Below are positions 28,176 to 37,177 of a stretch of DNA of 64,000 nucleotides, one piece after another. Under the pieces are notes generated by a model that did not search any database, had not been told where the DNA came from, and saw only the letters and a program-made list of their open reading frames with translations. The DNA is from Candidatus Uhrbacteria bacterium (GTDB lineage: Bacteria; Patescibacteriota; Patescibacteriia; 2-12-FULL-60-25): contig JACRQE010000002.1 in the NCBI GenBank assembly GCA_016222815.1, positions 186,001-250,000 on the forward strand, in the 5' to 3' direction. Positions within the stretch are counted from its first letter, which is position 1; every line of letters begins with the position of its first letter. A program made the position numbers and the translations under genes.

Positions 28176-28610
28176 ATGCAACTCCCACAAGAACTGCAGA
28201 AATTCCCGGTCGCGACCCTGATTGTCACCGCAGACAGCATGCAGGCGAAGATTTATCTGATTGGAGGCGACGCTTTGGACGAAGTCGCAAGCCTGGCAGT
28301 ACCCCGAGAGAAAAGCCAAGATAACGAAGGTTCGTTCGCTTCCGCGGACGGATCGCGGGTGGCCGGCCCGGTGGATGAGGATGATACGCCGCGATTCGAT
28401 TCGTTCGTGCGGCAGCTGGCCAGGCAAACCATAGATCTGACCCGCCGGCATAAGGTCGAGCAATTGGATTGCGTCATGCCGGCCGAAGTCGAACACGCGC
28501 TCGCGGACCAGTTGCCGAGCGATGTGGGGACACTGATAAAGCGCCGCTTACATAAAGACCTGATGAAACAAGCGCCGGTCGAGATGATCAGACACCTGCT
28601 GGAAGCGTAA
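28176..28610 (+). CDS. Host attachment protein-like (144 aa)
   Basis: Resembles the 'protein required for attachment to host cells' family. An N-terminal strand region (TLIVTADSMQAKIYLI), an acidic mid-section, then DSFVRQLARQTIDLTRRHKVEQLDCVMPAEVEHALADQLP and LIKRRLHKDLMKQAPVEMIRHLLEA. The family has a release-factor/ribosomal-L7Ae-like fold, and its biochemical role is unclear despite the name. The gene follows gpsA by 2 nt and is closed by a strong terminator. Confidence 0.78.
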   Translation: MQLPQELQKFPVATLIVTADSMQAKIYLIGGDALDEVASLAVPREKSQDNEGSFASADGSRVAGPVDEDDTPRFDSFVRQLARQTIDLTRRHKVEQLDCVMPAEVEHALADQLPSDVGTLIKRRLHKDLMKQAPVEMIRHLLEA

Positions 28611-29099: not shown

Positions 29100-30065
29100 T
29101 CAGTGACAGCTCGCCATTTGCTCAACGGCCCAAATCCCATTGATATAGCTAGTTGTATTCTTATCGTCGTCCAAATAGTCAGAAGAAATACCATGGTCGA
29201 GCAGGGTGAAGTACGGCACCGCTTTTTGTGCGTCAAAGAATCCGGCCAAAGCGACCAACGCCACACCATTGTCAATGAAATCGTCTTTGGCTCTAGCGAA
29301 GAATACTTGATTAAGATCCTTTAGTTCGGAGATCGTAATTTCATCATTTTTCAAAGCTTGTCCTGCAGGCAAATAGTGACTCATATCGGATGAGACGATG
29401 ACGATTGTCCGGTCGTCGATAAGCGAGGAGAGCTCTTCACCGAAGGAGCGTGCGAGGCCGCGGTCCATGGTTCCTTGCATTGCGATGCCGACAATCTTGG
29501 CGTCAGGAAATTCGTGTTTGATGAACGGAGCCAGGGTACCGATACCGTGTTCGGCTTCGAACATGATACCGTCCTCCAAAGCAACGGAAGTGGAAGAGAC
29601 CAGAGAGGCGACAAATGGTCGGTCTGATTCCAGGATCCCGTCAGGCGTCGCGTAATCGCGGTCGTGGACAGAGATGGGGCCGCGACCGGAGAAAAAATGG
29701 TCGGGAGACAGGATGATGATGCGCTTGGCATCAGGTGAGGATGCCTTGAGGTCGGTGAAAAAACGGGCGATGAGGTCGGCGGCCAGAAAGTGATGATTGA
29801 CCACACCGGCCACGACCTTTCCGCTGACGTACGTGACGTCGTGGGTGGAGGACCAGACCGAGGAGAAGCGCTTGGTGTCGATGAAGAACGCCGTATCAAT
29901 CGGATTGCGTGTACGGTTGATTCGAGGGGCAGAGAGTGACTGGAGGTTGTCCGGATCAGCCACTCCGCGATCCGTGGATGGCGTGCGAAGTGAAAACACG
30001 ATTCCGAAAGCGGCGGCCGCTAGGGCCGTCGCTATGACGATCGGTAAGATTAACTTGCGTTTCAT
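29100..30065 (-). CDS. MEMO family protein with membrane anchor
   Basis: 321 aa from ATG 30065. An N-terminal hydrophobic helix (MKRKLILPIVIATALAAAAF) anchors or exports it. The body is the MEMO/AmmeMemoRadiSam-B fold: VAGVVNHHFLAADLIARFF, IIILSPDHFFSGRGPISV, EAEHGIGTLAPFIKHEFP and IVIVSSDMSHYLP are its hallmark segments. The fold is related to extradiol dioxygenases and binds a metal through His residues. Its start overlaps the stop of the alpha-2-macroglobulin gene (ATGA), so it is the third member of a coupled operon. The radical-SAM and AMMECR1 partners of the usual trio are not nearby. Confidence 0.9.
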   Translation of the reverse strand: MKRKLILPIVIATALAAAAFGIVFSLRTPSTDRGVADPDNLQSLSAPRINRTRNPIDTAFFIDTKRFSSVWSSTHDVTYVSGKVVAGVVNHHFLAADLIARFFTDLKASSPDAKRIIILSPDHFFSGRGPISVHDRDYATPDGILESDRPFVASLVSSTSVALEDGIMFEAEHGIGTLAPFIKHEFPDAKIVGIAMQGTMDRGLARSFGEELSSLIDDRTIVIVSSDMSHYLPAGQALKNDEITISELKDLNQVFFARAKDDFIDNGVALVALAGFFDAQKAVPYFTLLDHGISSDYLDDDKNTTSYINGIWAVEQMASCH

Positions 30066-33000
30066 TTTATGCTGACTGGCTGGCTTTGGCTTAAAGCCGA
30101 GACCGAAGGCGCTTCGGTGCTCTGCATGATGGCCGGCTCGGCCAGGTAGGTGCCGCGAGCCACGACCCTGGCGCGATATTTGATCTTTTCCGTCGAACCA
30201 TCCTGCTTGCCAGGGTTGCAGGTCACGAAGCTGACGGAATTGTCGGTGATATCCGTGGGATACCAGAGGTTGCCGAAGTCGCCTGACCAGCCGAAATAGA
30301 CGGTGACCATAGGCGCCAAACCGGCTGGCAGATTGTCGCGCACTGTGTAACAACCGCTCTGCGCAAGCTTGTCCCATTTAAGGTCCAAATTCACCTGGAT
30401 GACATCGCTTTCCTTGAAGGCGGCGGAACTTTCGCTTCCCACGGCCTGGTAGGTCCGCGCGATTTGGATATCCGGGTTGGCAGTCGGCAAGCCAGGCACG
30501 CTGCGATAGAACACGGCCACGGCCGGTCCGTCAACTTTGGTTACGTGGAAGGACCTGGCTTCGTCGGCCGTGAGGACCAGGGTATAGCCCCAGCTTTCCT
30601 TGAGGGTAATCGTCTTTTCCGGCGAACCTCCCAGGGTGTAGCCGAACGAGACGTCGCTGCCCAAAGCGGCCGGCACTACGCGATTGAGGTAAGCGACACG
30701 GTCCAGATCGGTCATCGTATCCTGGGTCCAGTTCTTCTCGAGCCAGGCGTCGAGCTTGGGTGCGGCCGGGTGGAAGATATCGGCTGCCACGAGCGCAGCT
30801 TCAGCTGTAGCTTCGGTGACCGAACGCTTGTCGTCCGCTATGCGGACCGAAAGCAAACCATCTTCTTCTTTGGCCTGGGCCAACAGGTTGTCGAGCAAGA
30901 CCTTGGCACCCTGTTTATCGCCGATAGCGTTGAGGCCGCGCATGACCCCGAGTTTCTCGCGCCAGGACAGGTCGGGCAGGACAGCCATGTCTTGGAGCTG
31001 TTGGAGGACAGGAGCGCCTAAAGCGGCAAGACCAGACAAAGCGCGGATCTGTTCTTCGCGGGTCACGCCATCCTTTTGGAGATAGCCGATAAGATACTGT
31101 TCGAGCCCCTGGCGGTCGAAAAGGTCGGGTGCGACCGCGGCGACTTTGGAGGTCAGTTCAGCGTCGTCAGAGGCGTAAGGCAGGATGGCGATGCCGCCAT
31201 CAGGCCTCTGGTATTTGGTCAGCGGCTCTGACTGGTCTTCCACGGACTCACCGAAATAATCCTTGAGCAGTGCCTTGGCCAGGCGTGCGGCCAAACGGGA
31301 TTCGAAGCGCTGCGACCAGTTCCACGTCAGTTGGCGCACACGGTCAAGATACTGGGCGCGGGTCTTGGGCAAGAACCGGAGTTCGACTTCACGCGAATCC
31401 CCTATGTCGGGCAAGGCGACGCCAGGACCTAAATCGACCTGGGCTAAATCATTGCGCAAGAAATGCGAGGCGGCGACGTTGATCTTTTTCTCGAGCGCAT
31501 CCGTGCCGTTCGCACCTTTGACCCTGATTACCATGGCGTGGTTCCCGGCGGGCAATGTATCGACCGCGACATAGGCGGCTTGGCCGACAGTGCCTTTGAC
31601 CGATTCGTTCTTGAGTCCGAGCGTCGGGGCGTCGATGGAGAAGTCCACGCTTTCGCCGGTCTTGAGTCCGGTACCGTAAGCCCGCAGTTTCATGACCGGT
31701 TTGTCGGCCGTGAGGAGATTGGACGGAACCGTCACCTCGACGAATACCGGTTTGGTGACGCGGATTTGGGTGCGACCCACGCCGGCATACAACCCGGGCG
31801 TGGCGGCCACGGCCGTAGCGCGCCAGCTGGTCAGGTTGTCGGGAAGGTCGAAGGTTACATCAGCCTGTCCGTTATCATCAGCCGTGACCATGGCGAAACC
31901 GGCGGTATCCTTGAAATCGCGACGGACCTGCTCTCCCCCGCCCCCGCCGCGTTCGGCTCCGCCCAAGGCGGCAGCTTCGAGCTTGTTCTCATATTGAGAT
32001 ATGCGGTCGAATATTACGCCATCGCTGACCCAAGAATAGATGTCGCCAAGAGGATTCTCCTCAATCGAATTCTGGGCCGCGGCGAACACGGCTTCATCGA
32101 CCAAGGCCAGATCGATGCGCGCACCTTTGGCCGGCGAGCCGTCTTTGGTCTTGAGCGAGACGTGGAGCTTGGCTTTGCCCTGCGGCGCGTACACTTCCTG
32201 GTCTGGCGTGATGTTGACCGTGAGTTCGCGGCTGGCCGCATCGAACGACGCGGTGAAGTCGCGCATGACGAATCCGTTCTTGACGAAGGTGATGCCGCGG
32301 ACCGTCGTATTCGGGAGACTATCCTCATCGAAGACGAAACTGTAGGTGGATTTTTGTCCCACAGCCAATTCCTTGATGCCCAGATGGCTGCGGACGAAGA
32401 GGTAGACCGGGGTATCGGCGGTGGGCATGGGATCGCTGCCTTTGAACAAACCGACGCCGACCGTTTCGCCGGCCGCGTAATCGCTCTTTTGCGGGTCGTC
32501 CCTAAGCGGTTTCAAGGAGATCTCTTCGTCGCTACCGGGAGCGGAATCCGAGTAGTCCCACCAGCCGGCACTGAAGTAAGTGGTGGCGAAATCACGAAGG
32601 CCGTTCTCATCCTTGGTTTCGGCCACGAGCTGATACGAGACCGTGGTCGAGGTCATGGTGAACCGCAGGCTCGCCTTGCCGGATTCGTCGGTCGTCACAT
32701 TGATGTCCGAGACATCACGCTCCCTGAGTTCGTAGCGGTAGATGGGATAAGAGGTCTTTTGGACGTAGTCATAACCCGTTTCTTGGAAGACTTGGACCCA
32801 GCTCCGTTCGCGGATCTTGCCCGTGATTTTGGCGTTGCGCTGGGCTTCGCCCAAGACGTTGGAACCGGAGTTCCCGACATTGGTGAGGTCGACTTTGCGG
32901 GCGATGAACTCTATGTCGACCTGCCTATCCTTGATCTTACGGGTCACGTCGAGCGAGACGTGCGAACGCCAGACGCTGACGGTTTCGGCGGCTTCGACCT

Positions 33001-35398
33001 GGGCTTCCTCGGCATCGGTCGGGCGCACCGTGATCCAGCTCGTGCGCGTCGAATTGCAATAGGCGTAACGGGCATAGGCATCGCAGTTATCGGCAGATGT
33101 CTTGATGGTGAACGTGGCGCGGCCGTCGTCGTCGGTCTTGAGGTCAAGGCTGTCATTGGTGACGCCGCTGGAATTGAGGGAGAGGTTCAGATTAGAAACC
33201 GGAGCGCCGCTATAGAACTTGGCGCGGACTTCGCCAGAGATATCGTCACCGGCGAAAATCTGTTTCTTGCTGACCACGACTTCGAGCGTGTAGGCGGGTT
33301 TGACGAAATCCCGGATCTCGAAGTTCCGTGAAGCGATAGTCTGGCCGTCGCGCTTGAGGTTGATGCGATAAGTACCGGCTTGCATGGTTTTCCAGGACAA
33401 ATCAGTCTGGAAGAAACCCTGGTCATCGGTCTTGAGGTCGATGCGCTGGTAGATCTTGGGCGTGCCGGTGAAGAAATCGAAGTAATATCCGCCACGAGCA
33501 AGCTCGAGGGTGAGGTTGCCGGAGACGGGCTGTTTGCTGACGCGGTCGCGGGCCATGCCGTAGGCCTTGAGCCCATCGGTGGTGCGGTACAGCGGGCGGT
33601 CTGGATAGAGGAAAGAGACGGTCTGGTCGTTCATGTTCCCGACCTGAATGTATCGGTCGAAATAATCGTATGGCTGGTACTGCTTCTGGACGCGGATGAG
33701 GGACGAGAGCTGGCCAGTGCCCAAGGTGACGATGGCGGAAGTGGCGTAGTCGCTCGAGGTGGCGGTGAGAACTTGGGGCGTAGGTAACTTAGCGATACCG
33801 TCACTGCCGGTCTTGGCCTGGGCGTCATCGGATGAGACGGGCAGGTCGGTGAGAGGACGGCGCGTTTCGGCGTTGACCGCCCAAACAGCCAGATTGGTTT
33901 TGTCGGCGATGGAGTATGAGACTAGGTTAGTGGACGAAAAGAATGTCCACGACGGATCAGCGCCGGCGGTTTCGAACTTGAGCAGGTAGTGGCCGGCCGT
34001 CAAACCGCCAGGCAAACGGATGTTGTAACCGTAGTAGCTGTTCTGCTCGATGTTCCCTGAAACGGTAAAGGATTTGCCCGTGGTGTATTTGGCGTAAAGC
34101 TCGTCTTTGGACAGGGTGACGATGGCGAAATCCGGGATCTTGGAACGTTCGACCAGATATTGCCTAGCCTGGTCGAGCTCCAGTGCGTATCCGGTGATTG
34201 TGACGGGCGTGCTCGTGGCCTCGCCGTTCCAATACACGGGAATCAATGCGTCGTGGCCAGGTAGTTCATCATTCATATCCTGGGTCGGAGAGAGGTAGGG
34301 TTTCCGGCCGGGCTCCTCACCAGGCTTGGGCTTGGCCATGGTCTCAAAACTGATGACAAAGTCTTCGGCCAACCTGTTATCAGTATCTTTGACATTTAGG
34401 CCTTTCTTCAACGTCACGGTATAAACCTGGCCGTACTGCAGGGGCTGGAGAGGGACGAAAGTCAAACTGCGGCCATGGACCTCAAAGCGACCGGCGGTCG
34501 CTGGTTCGATGACGAAGAAAGGCGTGGGGTCGGTCCAGCCGTCGAACGACATGCCGAATTCGATGCCCGTGTTGATGGGGACGGAGGAAGACCTGTCGGC
34601 TGGGACCGATGTCATGACACGGAATACGCTCTTGGTCTGCACCGCCCAGGCGAAATCGTGGGCAGTCAGCGTACCATCAGCTTTCTTGACCGCGGTATCG
34701 ATGACGACGCGATAGACTTTTCCCGGAGTCAACACGACATCCGGAGTGACATTAAATATACCCTTGCTTGTTTCCACGACTTTGACATTGCCGGGTTTGA
34801 CGGCATCCGGATCGTCGGCGGCGGGCACGATACGGAGATGTTGGACGAGCTCGGCGGTCGTGACCGGAACGGTGGATGAGACCATGAAGCCGGTGGCGAT
34901 GTCGACGCCCGTGCGGTCTTTCTCCAAGGCAATGACACTGAAGGCGTCGGCGGCGTGGGCTTCGGGGATGATCAGGCGCGCGATCGCAGTCCCGGTCAGT
35001 GCCACAGACTGGGGGCCTACGTTATCCATGGGGGGCTTGAAGACCAGGACAGCCAAGACAACGGCGATGGCAACCGTGGCCAACCCGCCGGTCCAGACAA
35101 ACCAGTTTTTGGTATCGAAGATGCTCCGAATAGAGCCCGTGCCCCGAACTTCTTGTTTCGCACTTGGCGCATCTGCGCCGGAAGCCTGGATTCTCTTGCC
35201 GTTCACCATTGACATAAGGTTGGCTCGCTGTTTGGCCGCGACTTCCTTATCCAAATGGACTTCGTCGGCGACAGCTTCGCGCTTTAAGGATTCAGCTGTC
35301 TGCATCAACGGAGAAAGCGCCGGATCATGACAATCGGCTGCCGGGTGCTTGAGGGCCTGATCCAGGTTTTGGGCGTTTTGGTCTTGGTTCATGGTCAT
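30062..35398 (-). CDS. Membrane-anchored alpha-2-macroglobulin family protein (1778 aa)
   Basis: A cytoplasmic N-terminal segment of about 95 residues, one membrane helix (WFVWTGGLATVAIAVVLAVLVF, about 97-119), then a giant extracytoplasmic part. It has repeated MG-type sandwiches (KPAYTLEVVVSKKQIFAGDDI), a Gly-rich bait-like loop ending GGGGGEQVRRDF, the A2M segment LPDNLTSWRATAVAATPGLY, and a helical thioester-type domain. The thioester motif (normally CxEQ) is replaced by WNWSQ, so it cannot form the covalent trap. The start overlaps the sigma-factor stop. The cytoplasmic part may act as anti-sigma; that is inference. Confidence 0.9.
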   Translation of the reverse strand: MTMNQDQNAQNLDQALKHPAADCHDPALSPLMQTAESLKREAVADEVHLDKEVAAKQRANLMSMVNGKRIQASGADAPSAKQEVRGTGSIRSIFDTKNWFVWTGGLATVAIAVVLAVLVFKPPMDNVGPQSVALTGTAIARLIIPEAHAADAFSVIALEKDRTGVDIATGFMVSSTVPVTTAELVQHLRIVPAADDPDAVKPGNVKVVETSKGIFNVTPDVVLTPGKVYRVVIDTAVKKADGTLTAHDFAWAVQTKSVFRVMTSVPADRSSSVPINTGIEFGMSFDGWTDPTPFFVIEPATAGRFEVHGRSLTFVPLQPLQYGQVYTVTLKKGLNVKDTDNRLAEDFVISFETMAKPKPGEEPGRKPYLSPTQDMNDELPGHDALIPVYWNGEATSTPVTITGYALELDQARQYLVERSKIPDFAIVTLSKDELYAKYTTGKSFTVSGNIEQNSYYGYNIRLPGGLTAGHYLLKFETAGADPSWTFFSSTNLVSYSIADKTNLAVWAVNAETRRPLTDLPVSSDDAQAKTGSDGIAKLPTPQVLTATSSDYATSAIVTLGTGQLSSLIRVQKQYQPYDYFDRYIQVGNMNDQTVSFLYPDRPLYRTTDGLKAYGMARDRVSKQPVSGNLTLELARGGYYFDFFTGTPKIYQRIDLKTDDQGFFQTDLSWKTMQAGTYRINLKRDGQTIASRNFEIRDFVKPAYTLEVVVSKKQIFAGDDISGEVRAKFYSGAPVSNLNLSLNSSGVTNDSLDLKTDDDGRATFTIKTSADNCDAYARYAYCNSTRTSWITVRPTDAEEAQVEAAETVSVWRSHVSLDVTRKIKDRQVDIEFIARKVDLTNVGNSGSNVLGEAQRNAKITGKIRERSWVQVFQETGYDYVQKTSYPIYRYELRERDVSDINVTTDESGKASLRFTMTSTTVSYQLVAETKDENGLRDFATTYFSAGWWDYSDSAPGSDEEISLKPLRDDPQKSDYAAGETVGVGLFKGSDPMPTADTPVYLFVRSHLGIKELAVGQKSTYSFVFDEDSLPNTTVRGITFVKNGFVMRDFTASFDAASRELTVNITPDQEVYAPQGKAKLHVSLKTKDGSPAKGARIDLALVDEAVFAAAQNSIEENPLGDIYSWVSDGVIFDRISQYENKLEAAALGGAERGGGGGEQVRRDFKDTAGFAMVTADDNGQADVTFDLPDNLTSWRATAVAATPGLYAGVGRTQIRVTKPVFVEVTVPSNLLTADKPVMKLRAYGTGLKTGESVDFSIDAPTLGLKNESVKGTVGQAAYVAVDTLPAGNHAMVIRVKGANGTDALEKKINVAASHFLRNDLAQVDLGPGVALPDIGDSREVELRFLPKTRAQYLDRVRQLTWNWSQRFESRLAARLAKALLKDYFGESVEDQSEPLTKYQRPDGGIAILPYASDDAELTSKVAAVAPDLFDRQGLEQYLIGYLQKDGVTREEQIRALSGLAALGAPVLQQLQDMAVLPDLSWREKLGVMRGLNAIGDKQGAKVLLDNLLAQAKEEDGLLSVRIADDKRSVTEATAEAALVAADIFHPAAPKLDAWLEKNWTQDTMTDLDRVAYLNRVVPAALGSDVSFGYTLGGSPEKTITLKESWGYTLVLTADEARSFHVTKVDGPAVAVFYRSVPGLPTANPDIQIARTYQAVGSESSAAFKESDVIQVNLDLKWDKLAQSGCYTVRDNLPAGLAPMVTVYFGWSGDFGNLWYPTDITDNSVSFVTCNPGKQDGSTEKIKYRARVVARGTYLAEPAIMQSTEAPSVSALSQSQPVSIK

Positions 35399-35967
35399 AC
35401 TTGTGGGTTGGCTACGAGCTTTTGGCGGAGTCTACCCAGGGCGCGATAGACGAGGACGGATGCGTGGTTGGGCGAGATGTCGAGCTGGGCCGCGATCTCT
35501 GCCGTTTCGAGTTGGGCGAAGAATTTCAGGTCCAGTATCTCTTGGTCGCGGTCGGACAGTTCTTTCAGGATTTCACGCAGCTTCTCTCCCTCTATCTTCA
35601 GCTCCGCGGTCCAAGCCGGATCATCGGCAGAGGGCGGGTCCCAGACGTCGGTATCGAGTTGGGTGTCCTTGCGCGTCGAGGCTTTGCGGAAGTGGTCGGT
35701 CAGGGCGTTGGATGCGACTTGGTAAAGCCAGGCCGAGAGCGGAGCGTTCTTCCATTCGAGGGAGGGCAGCGACTCCAGCAGTTTCATGAAAGTGTGTGAC
35801 ACCAAATCCTCGGCCGTCTCTTTATGGCTGCAACGTTTCAGCAGGAAGCCGTAGAGACGGTCGGCATACAGATCGTAGACTTCACCAACGACCGAAGGAT
35901 CGTCTTTGAGCCTAAGAAACAGTTCGTGGTCCTGTTCCAGGGTGCGTAAATGGGTTTCTGTTGGCAT
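35395..35967 (-). CDS. ECF-type sigma-70 family factor
   Basis: 190 aa with region 2 (VYDLYADRLYGFLLKRCSHKETAEDLVSHTFMKLLESLP...AWLYQVASNALTDHFRK) and region 4 (ILKELSDRDQEILDLKFFAQLETAEIAAQLDISPNHASVLVYRALGRL). There is no region 3, as in extracytoplasmic-function sigma factors that redirect RNA polymerase after an envelope signal. Its stop overlaps the start of the membrane A2M gene by 4 nt. The usual separate anti-sigma gene is absent. Confidence 0.95.
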   Translation of the reverse strand: MPTETHLRTLEQDHELFLRLKDDPSVVGEVYDLYADRLYGFLLKRCSHKETAEDLVSHTFMKLLESLPSLEWKNAPLSAWLYQVASNALTDHFRKASTRKDTQLDTDVWDPPSADDPAWTAELKIEGEKLREILKELSDRDQEILDLKFFAQLETAEIAAQLDISPNHASVLVYRALGRLRQKLVANPQV

Positions 35968-36002
35968 GTGTTTAAACGGATTTTCTGAGATTCAATGACG
36001 AC

Positions 36003-36031
36003 AGTATACCTTGCCTGAAAAAGCAGTTAAA
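36003..36031 (-). promoter_or_regulatory. Candidate promoter of the sigma/A2M/MEMO operon
   Basis: On the minus strand TTTAAC (complement of 36026-36031), 17-bp spacer, TATACT (complement of 36003-36008). The leader before ATG 35967 would be about 30 nt. Confidence 0.45.
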
Positions 36032-36517: not shown

Positions 36518-37177
36518 TCAGATGGCATCGAGGCTGTGCGCTTGGGCGATGTCCGCTTTAGTCAAACCACGGCCGTCGCGCGTCAGGACAAAAACGCTGA
36601 CCGTACGGCCGGACAATCTTATATCTGGATAGTGGCGCATGTTCTCGGCCAGGCGCCCGATTTGGTTCACGAAATTCAAGGCTTGAGAAAAATCCGCGAA
36701 CTCATAGGATTTAACCAGAGCATGTTTTTCGACATGCCAACCGGGAAGTTTCTCGAGAGCGGTTGATATCTCGTGCGGACTCAAAGTCGGACGAGCAGTC
36801 AGATGACCGGCCAAGACGCTGCCGAATGAAAAGGCGAAGCCGCCCATGAAAACGATAATGAGGGGCTCGATGAGGATATATGAGATTATCCAATCGCCGA
36901 AGACGATGGGCGCGAGATACAGACCGATGACGCCATAGGACAAGACCCATATCACGGCCCAAATAATCATGACATTCGACTTCCACCAGGTGAAAAAAAT
37001 CTCGTATCCGATGGCGATAAGGAACAGGGTGCACATCAGGAGAAAGACGGCGGGGCGATCCATGCCGTAGAGGGACTTGCCGAAAGTCATGGCAAAAGCC
37101 AAGCCGTAAAAATACAGGATGGTCAGGATCAAAACGAATTCCTTGAGGTTAGAAAGATAGGCGGCGACGGGAGACAT
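36518..37177 (-). CDS. Membrane protein fused to a pterin-4a-carbinolamine dehydratase-like domain
   Basis: 219 aa. Residues 1-125 contain four membrane helices (FVLILTILYFYGLAFAMTF; PAVFLLMCTLFLIAIGYEIFF; MIIWAVIWVLSYGVIGLYL; then LIIVFMGGFAFSFG). Residues 130-219 are a PCD/PhhB domain: LEKLPGWHVEKHALVKSYEF, FSQALNFVNQIGRLAENM, RHYPDI, SVFVLTRDGRGLTKADIAQA. The catalytic HHP of PCD enzymes is HYP here. The domain may dehydrate pterins weakly or serve as a binding or dimerisation module, as in DCoH. Such a membrane fusion is unusual. Confidence 0.82.
   Translation of the reverse strand: MSPVAAYLSNLKEFVLILTILYFYGLAFAMTFGKSLYGMDRPAVFLLMCTLFLIAIGYEIFFTWWKSNVMIIWAVIWVLSYGVIGLYLAPIVFGDWIISYILIEPLIIVFMGGFAFSFGSVLAGHLTARPTLSPHEISTALEKLPGWHVEKHALVKSYEFADFSQALNFVNQIGRLAENMRHYPDIRLSGRTVSVFVLTRDGRGLTKADIAQAHSLDAI

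Follow-up and report, generated by a model that had tools for sequence, protein, structure and literature searches.

Within a window of 64,000 nucleotides from a Candidatus Uhrbacteria bacterium (contig JACRQE010000002.1; all positions below are those of the window), a minus-strand operon encodes an extracytoplasmic function (ECF) sigma factor, a membrane-anchored alpha-2-macroglobulin (A2M) and a MEMO-family protein. We propose, with a probability of roughly 0.78, that this A2M is a membrane-spanning anti-sigma receptor whose thioester-less ectodomain serves as the sensor, the whole forming a one-component system. Sequence comparison gives strong support to the operon itself, to the co-inheritance of the sigma factor with the N-terminal domain of the A2M and to the promoter upstream of the sigma gene. 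We infer the physical sequestration of the sigma factor, the cleavage route, the signal and the role of the MEMO protein.

Organisation of the operon and its sigma factor

The host genome of the window is 1.3 Mb and 98% complete, and its relatives are Candidatus Uhrbacteria or Patescibacteria by name. On the minus strand the gene for the ECF sigma factor (35395..35967, 190 amino acids) is followed by the A2M gene (30062..35398, 1778 amino acids, delimited by the sequence, Pfam domains and alignment) and then by the MEMO gene (29100..30065, 321 amino acids with an N-terminal signal anchor). For the last of these the start was taken as 30065, the mechanical open reading frame start at 30377 being too long. 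An earlier, sequence-only reading of this DNA described three genes each overlapping by ATGA; the overlaps are real, but the junctions number two, at 35395-35398 between the sigma and A2M genes and at 30062-30065 between the A2M and MEMO genes. As both joins are of this kind, translation of the three proteins is probably coupled. The same reading noted that the sigma factor has no separate anti-sigma gene, and none was found within the operon; two other ECF genes in this genome do have separate anti-sigma genes, of the DUF5667 type.

The sigma factor consists only of sigma-70 regions 2 and 4 in about 190 residues, as is typical of the ECF group, with matches to Sigma70_r2 (56 bits) and r4_2 (39 bits) that both lie above the Pfam cut-off. 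Among solved structures, the best PDB match was the BldN chain of 6DXO, in which BldN is bound by RsbN. However, the protein scored 124.9 bits against the NCBIfam BldN equivalog TIGR02952, below its cut-off of 206. Judged by these matches, BldN is named here as its nearest type, without membership in the equivalog. Sigma factors linked to an A2M in Patescibacteria form one clade (support 98/85), separate from the ECFs that are linked to DUF5667 in these genomes, and those of Clostridia form a second (99/88), one long branch excepted.

Co-inheritance of the sigma factor and the A2M cytoplasmic domain

Profile searches for the A2M and the sigma factor were run over 41 genomes of the family (Candidatus Uhrbacteria). 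The two were distributed identically, both being present in 28 genomes and both missing from the remaining 13, and this distribution is patchy inside three genera of the family. The sigma profile matched better than 1e-80 in the 28 genomes, and no other ECF gene in the 41 reached better than 4e-33. Wherever the contig reaches far enough, the sigma gene stands directly before the A2M gene and the MEMO gene directly after it, and the sigma and A2M genes overlap or lie a few bases apart. With the A2M and sigma genes sharing 28 of 41 genomes and MEMO next in line, the association of the trio exceeds chance by far.

The A2M itself has the layout that had been read from its sequence, namely a cytoplasmic part, one membrane helix and a large outer part. 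By hydropathy and alignment, about 98 residues precede a single hydrophobic helix (residues 99-121; 35036..35104, minus strand), beyond which lies the ectodomain. Residues 1-75 (35174..35398, minus strand) are predicted to form a cytoplasmic helical anti-sigma domain, on the basis of co-inheritance with the sigma factor and of helices in an AlphaFold2 model of a family homologue (locus L077). The protein thus has two features of a membrane anti-sigma factor: a helical cytoplasmic domain (helices predicted only) ahead of a transmembrane helix, and a gene that adjoins that of its sigma factor and is inherited with it. DUF5667 was considered for the N-terminus and rejected, there being no Pfam match; in the other anti-sigma factors of these genomes DUF5667 is preceded by a short N-terminal segment and by a run of hydrophobic residues. 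Nor did the N-terminus match any described class I, II or III anti-sigma domain, and since such domains diverge fast it was assigned to no class.

A scan of named genomes, together with a class-wide scan, yielded about 120 A2M loci, mostly outside the family. The sequence-only reading had suggested seeking the same gene trio in other Patescibacteria; A2Ms linked to a sigma gene were found there and also in Clostridia. Before locus corrections, the stretch ahead of the helix measured 60-123 residues in all 36 detected A2Ms with a sigma gene just upstream; in A2Ms lacking an upstream sigma gene the helix usually lies close to the start, as a signal anchor. After three loci had been corrected, the set used for a tree comprised 97 A2Ms, and a long cytoplasmic N-terminus, some 60-120 residues in length, was present in 38/38 proteins with the sigma factor versus 3/59 without it (Fisher's exact test, 8e-24). 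The three sigma-free proteins with a long N-terminus (L115, L131 and L195) do not resemble the sigma-linked domain; that of L195 is a different extension of about 90 residues with no sigma gene nearby. A closer look was also taken at loci that appeared to be exceptions. At L120 an ECF gene is present that the sigma profile had missed, and at L119 the sigma gene lies 1.4 kb upstream and the domain ahead of the start first chosen. At L204 the sigma gene upstream of the A2M gene is broken into frames (a frameshift or an assembly error) and the A2M retains the anti-sigma-like domain.

Mapped on the A2M tree, presence or absence of the sigma factor switches no fewer than 11 times, and well-supported branches force 8 of these switches. 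The tree is a quick one, and the contrast test was restricted to its well-supported branches. In these independent contrasts the domain was concordant with the sigma factor in 7.6 of 8 and discordant in none (p = 0.008), which we regard as the strongest evidence pointing to the cytoplasmic part as belonging to the sigma factor. Relatives were also searched for an A2M with the same cytoplasmic part and no sigma gene, the case named in advance as damaging to the idea, and none was found. The proposal that the cytoplasmic segment of the A2M holds the sigma factor is therefore well supported comparatively, by the 38/38 sigma-linked proteins and by the contrasts, and from this pattern we infer binding.

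Promoter, ectodomain and proposed release of the sigma factor

A motif search placed a promoter of the ECF type (35975..35999, minus strand) ahead of the sigma gene; it reads GTCAT-N16-CGTT and leaves 7 nt to the ATG. Searching with the pattern GT[ACT]A[CTG]-N15-17-CGTT recovered a promoter upstream of the sigma gene in 35/45 sigma-linked loci, against a mean of 0.39 in shuffles; the motif is of the GT[CA]A[TC]-N16-CGTT type, and its form is BldN-like. Across the family the CGTT element ends about 7 bases ahead of the ATG, and the transcript is therefore probably leaderless. Just upstream stands TATACT (36003..36008, minus strand), which we read as a housekeeping sigma-70-like -10 box and which many loci of the family have in the corresponding position. 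The two elements together would therefore give the operon basal expression plus autoregulation.

The sequence-only reading had suggested a test for a promoter motif shared with other surface genes, and the motif does recur. Nine genomes from a related genus were compared: the strict promoter precedes a gene for a secreted Beta_propel protein in 5 of them and a VanW gene in 4, the copies carrying different spacers. It also stands before an EPSP-synthase (MurA-like) gene and before several lipoprotein genes, of which one is PdaC/DUF3298-like. VanW is preceded by the variant GTAAT-N16-CGTT in the genome of the window. An envelope regulon for the A2M-linked sigma factor is supported by these sites, more weakly than the operon promoter. 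The beta-propeller gene, with a promoter matching the one before the A2M-linked sigma gene, lies downstream beside a second ECF operon that itself lacks the motif; control by the A2M-linked sigma factor is likely but not certain.

The ectodomain (30065..34948, minus strand) contains Big_5, MG, bait-region and A2M domains, those of the A2M, bait-region, MG4 and Big_5 families scoring above the Pfam cut-off. Membership of the A2M family is borne out by PF00207 (47 bits) and PF07703 (27 bits). In a search for the CxEQ thioester, none of the 16 family proteins had it and it was missing from 105/106 relatives scanned; covalent trapping of proteases is thereby ruled out. The bait segment is a short run of residues rich in Gly (GGGAEKGGGGG), conserved whether a relative has the sigma factor or lacks it. 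Just outside the helix runs a conserved stretch, IPEAxA-D-A-F, in which P145, A149, D151 and F153 are invariant; in the window protein it reads IPEAHA (residues 144-149; 34952..34969, minus strand) followed by A-D, and is a candidate site for a signal peptidase-type site-1 protease. An AxA motif follows the helix in 35/38 sigma-linked A2Ms versus 14/59 others. The conserved AxA is a plausible signal-peptidase site and suggests that the A2M may be cleaved much as RsiV is. The window's genome also encodes a site-2 protease of the M50 type.

The MEMO protein matches PF01875 (2e-21) and TIGR04336 (93.9 bits, cut-off 26) and has the conserved His, Asp and Glu residues of the family (H91, H92, D122, H123, E172, H173, D227 and H230). 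MEMO proteins carry a lipobox or signal anchor, and thus act outside the cytoplasm. In most loci they adjoin the A2M whether or not a sigma gene is present. Because the pairing is independent of the sigma factor and MEMO is extracytoplasmic, MEMO is better regarded as a partner of the A2M than of the sigma factor, and from its position it most likely works on or with the A2M ectodomain. A2M and MEMO also form a conserved gene pair without the sigma gene in Clostridia, Chloroflexota and many Patescibacteria (loci L081-L150 and L171-L214); no description of this pair was found in literature under open licences.

Taken together, a route can be proposed in which the cytoplasmic N-terminal helices of the A2M would sequester the ECF sigma factor translated from the same mRNA, the large macroglobulin ectodomain, probably with MEMO, acting as sensor. 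A change in the ectodomain, whether by binding, damage or outside proteolysis, would expose the AxA site to the site-1 protease; the M50 protease would next cut the membrane helix and free the sigma factor. The latter would then transcribe its own operon, in positive feedback, together with genes of the envelope, among them those encoding VanW and the secreted beta-propeller protein.

Alternative explanations and related systems

Several results weigh against the A2M as an anti-sigma receptor. Its N-terminal domain has no match in Pfam or the PDB, and no known anti-sigma family fits it. AlphaFold2 was run twice on a single chain, the sigma-A2M read-through of L077 with TAG read as Q. In one run the sigma-2 and sigma-4 parts were confident and the A2M N-terminal domain less so (predicted template modelling score, pTM, 0.38); the other, from a different alignment, gave a pTM of 0.27, and docking of the sigma factor on the N-terminus was confident in neither. 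Foldseek matches to the model were ECF sigma factors, including those in the RsbN-BldN, RseA, RsiW, RskA and CnrY complexes, and as such reflect its sigma part. The regulon sites are few. A regulon drawn from the window's genome alone was abandoned, the bare pattern being too unspecific and falling mostly inside genes. The beta-propeller gene adjoins the second ECF operon (L295-L299), so that the promoter of this gene could be shared. Lastly, AxA was not upheld as an independent correlate of the sigma factor once phylogeny was considered (p = 0.375).

The A2M might instead be a pure effector that shields the surface or binds proteases. It would be made under an autoregulated sigma factor that is itself controlled elsewhere or through transcription only, and its N-terminus would be a mere anchor. 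The promoter predicts that the sigma factor induces both A2M and MEMO, sigma-free A2M-MEMO pairs exist, and AlphaFold2 gave no confident docking. However, the N-terminal domain comes and goes with the sigma factor across phyla, sigma-free A2Ms do with short signal anchors and no other anti-sigma gene stands in the operon, all of which makes this account very improbable. Turning to the trigger, the sequence-only reading held that an outside protease cuts the bait loop, upon which the A2M reshapes and the sigma factor is freed. The protein does have a bait-region domain, but the short, conserved bait, alike whether or not a sigma gene is present, is unlike the hypervariable bait of a trap, and no thioester accompanies it. 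This trigger is quite unlikely, and the AxA motif after the helix is the more likely cleavage site. Thus the part of that reading which made the cytoplasmic segment an anti-sigma domain stands on comparative evidence, whereas its bait-loop trigger is unsupported.

The AxA site might also serve ordinary maturation, with signal peptidase normally releasing the ectodomain; the system would then report how the A2M is secreted or folded, and not an outside ligand. In Clostridia and another uhrbacterial family the motif lies about 9-12 residues past the helix, the normal spacing of signal peptides, and it is kept in some sigma-free relatives. In the window's family, however, the gap is 23-30 residues, as if cleavage were held back, and under constitutive cleavage the sigma factor would stay free; we consider maturation an unlikely explanation, and prefer the anti-sigma receptor with regulated cleavage.

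Membrane anti-sigma receptors of comparable design are known. RsgI, the partner of sigma-I in Clostridium thermocellum, likewise has a short cytoplasmic anti-sigma domain, one helix and a large outer sensor, the outer parts of RsgI recognising polysaccharides, and differs in sigma type and anti-sigma domain. Its membrane helix is cut by RseP (PMC12203970). In the RsiV/sigma-V system of Bacillus subtilis and Clostridioides difficile a single-pass anti-sigma factor is the receptor and an ECF sigma factor adjoins it, as here (PMC6066255, PMC9044953). Signal peptidase makes the site-1 cut outside the RsiV helix, followed by a site-2 protease (PMC6066255, PMC9044953), an order that the A2M system may share. 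Amphipathic helices lying on the membrane shield the signal-peptidase site until lysozyme binds, and RasP cuts next (PMC6066255). The RsiV ectodomain is small and lysozyme-binding, whereas the window system has an A2M ectodomain of about 1600 residues plus MEMO. A Pfam search of the window A2M did not find the RsiV family domains DUF4179 and DUF3298. The likeness to BldN/RsbN lies in the sigma factor, BldN being its nearest solved relative (6DXO); we know of no A2M ectodomain on RsbN, unlike the anti-sigma candidate of the window. The class III anti-sigma domain, the class to which the Streptomyces BldN/RsbN pair belongs, is short, with three helices (PMC7406223).

Among macroglobulins, ECAM/YfhM and SaA2M belong to the same fold family and are membrane-anchored. 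ECAM has a CLEQ thioester, is thought to be a protease trap and is often encoded beside pbp1C (PMC4498604); the window A2M has no thioester and does have a cytoplasmic domain. MEMO falls in the same family as AmmeMemoRadiSam protein B (TIGR04336). Unlike that system, it is extracytoplasmic and paired with an A2M, and no AMMECR1 or radical-SAM partner adjoins it in the operon. Nearby in the window, a gene at 36518-37177 (minus strand) encodes a protein whose N-terminal part is hydrophobic and probably lies in the membrane, with a pterin-4a-carbinolamine dehydratase domain fused after it, and a Host_attach/baeRF-like protein is encoded beside the operon on the opposite strand (28176-28610, plus strand).

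No relevant report of an A2M as an anti-sigma factor or ECF partner was found in literature under open licences; receptors of this general kind are known, and what is new is an A2M as the sensor. We think it rather probable that A2Ms became transmembrane anti-sigma receptors on several occasions, in no fewer than two phyla of bacteria, by gaining a sigma-plus-anti-sigma module, giving a widespread sensor of surface damage or proteolysis that governs an envelope regulon. Bacterial A2Ms would then gain a second job, sensing instead of trapping, which would offer a reason for the missing thioester in this group. The conserved A2M-MEMO pair supplies an extracytoplasmic partner for MEMO proteins, a family about whose function little is known. 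For Patescibacteria the system would provide a testable handle on how these cells perceive their surroundings at the surface, and the link extends to Clostridia, with more tractable hosts. An immune-type protein family would thus have been turned into a surface sensor controlling envelope genes.
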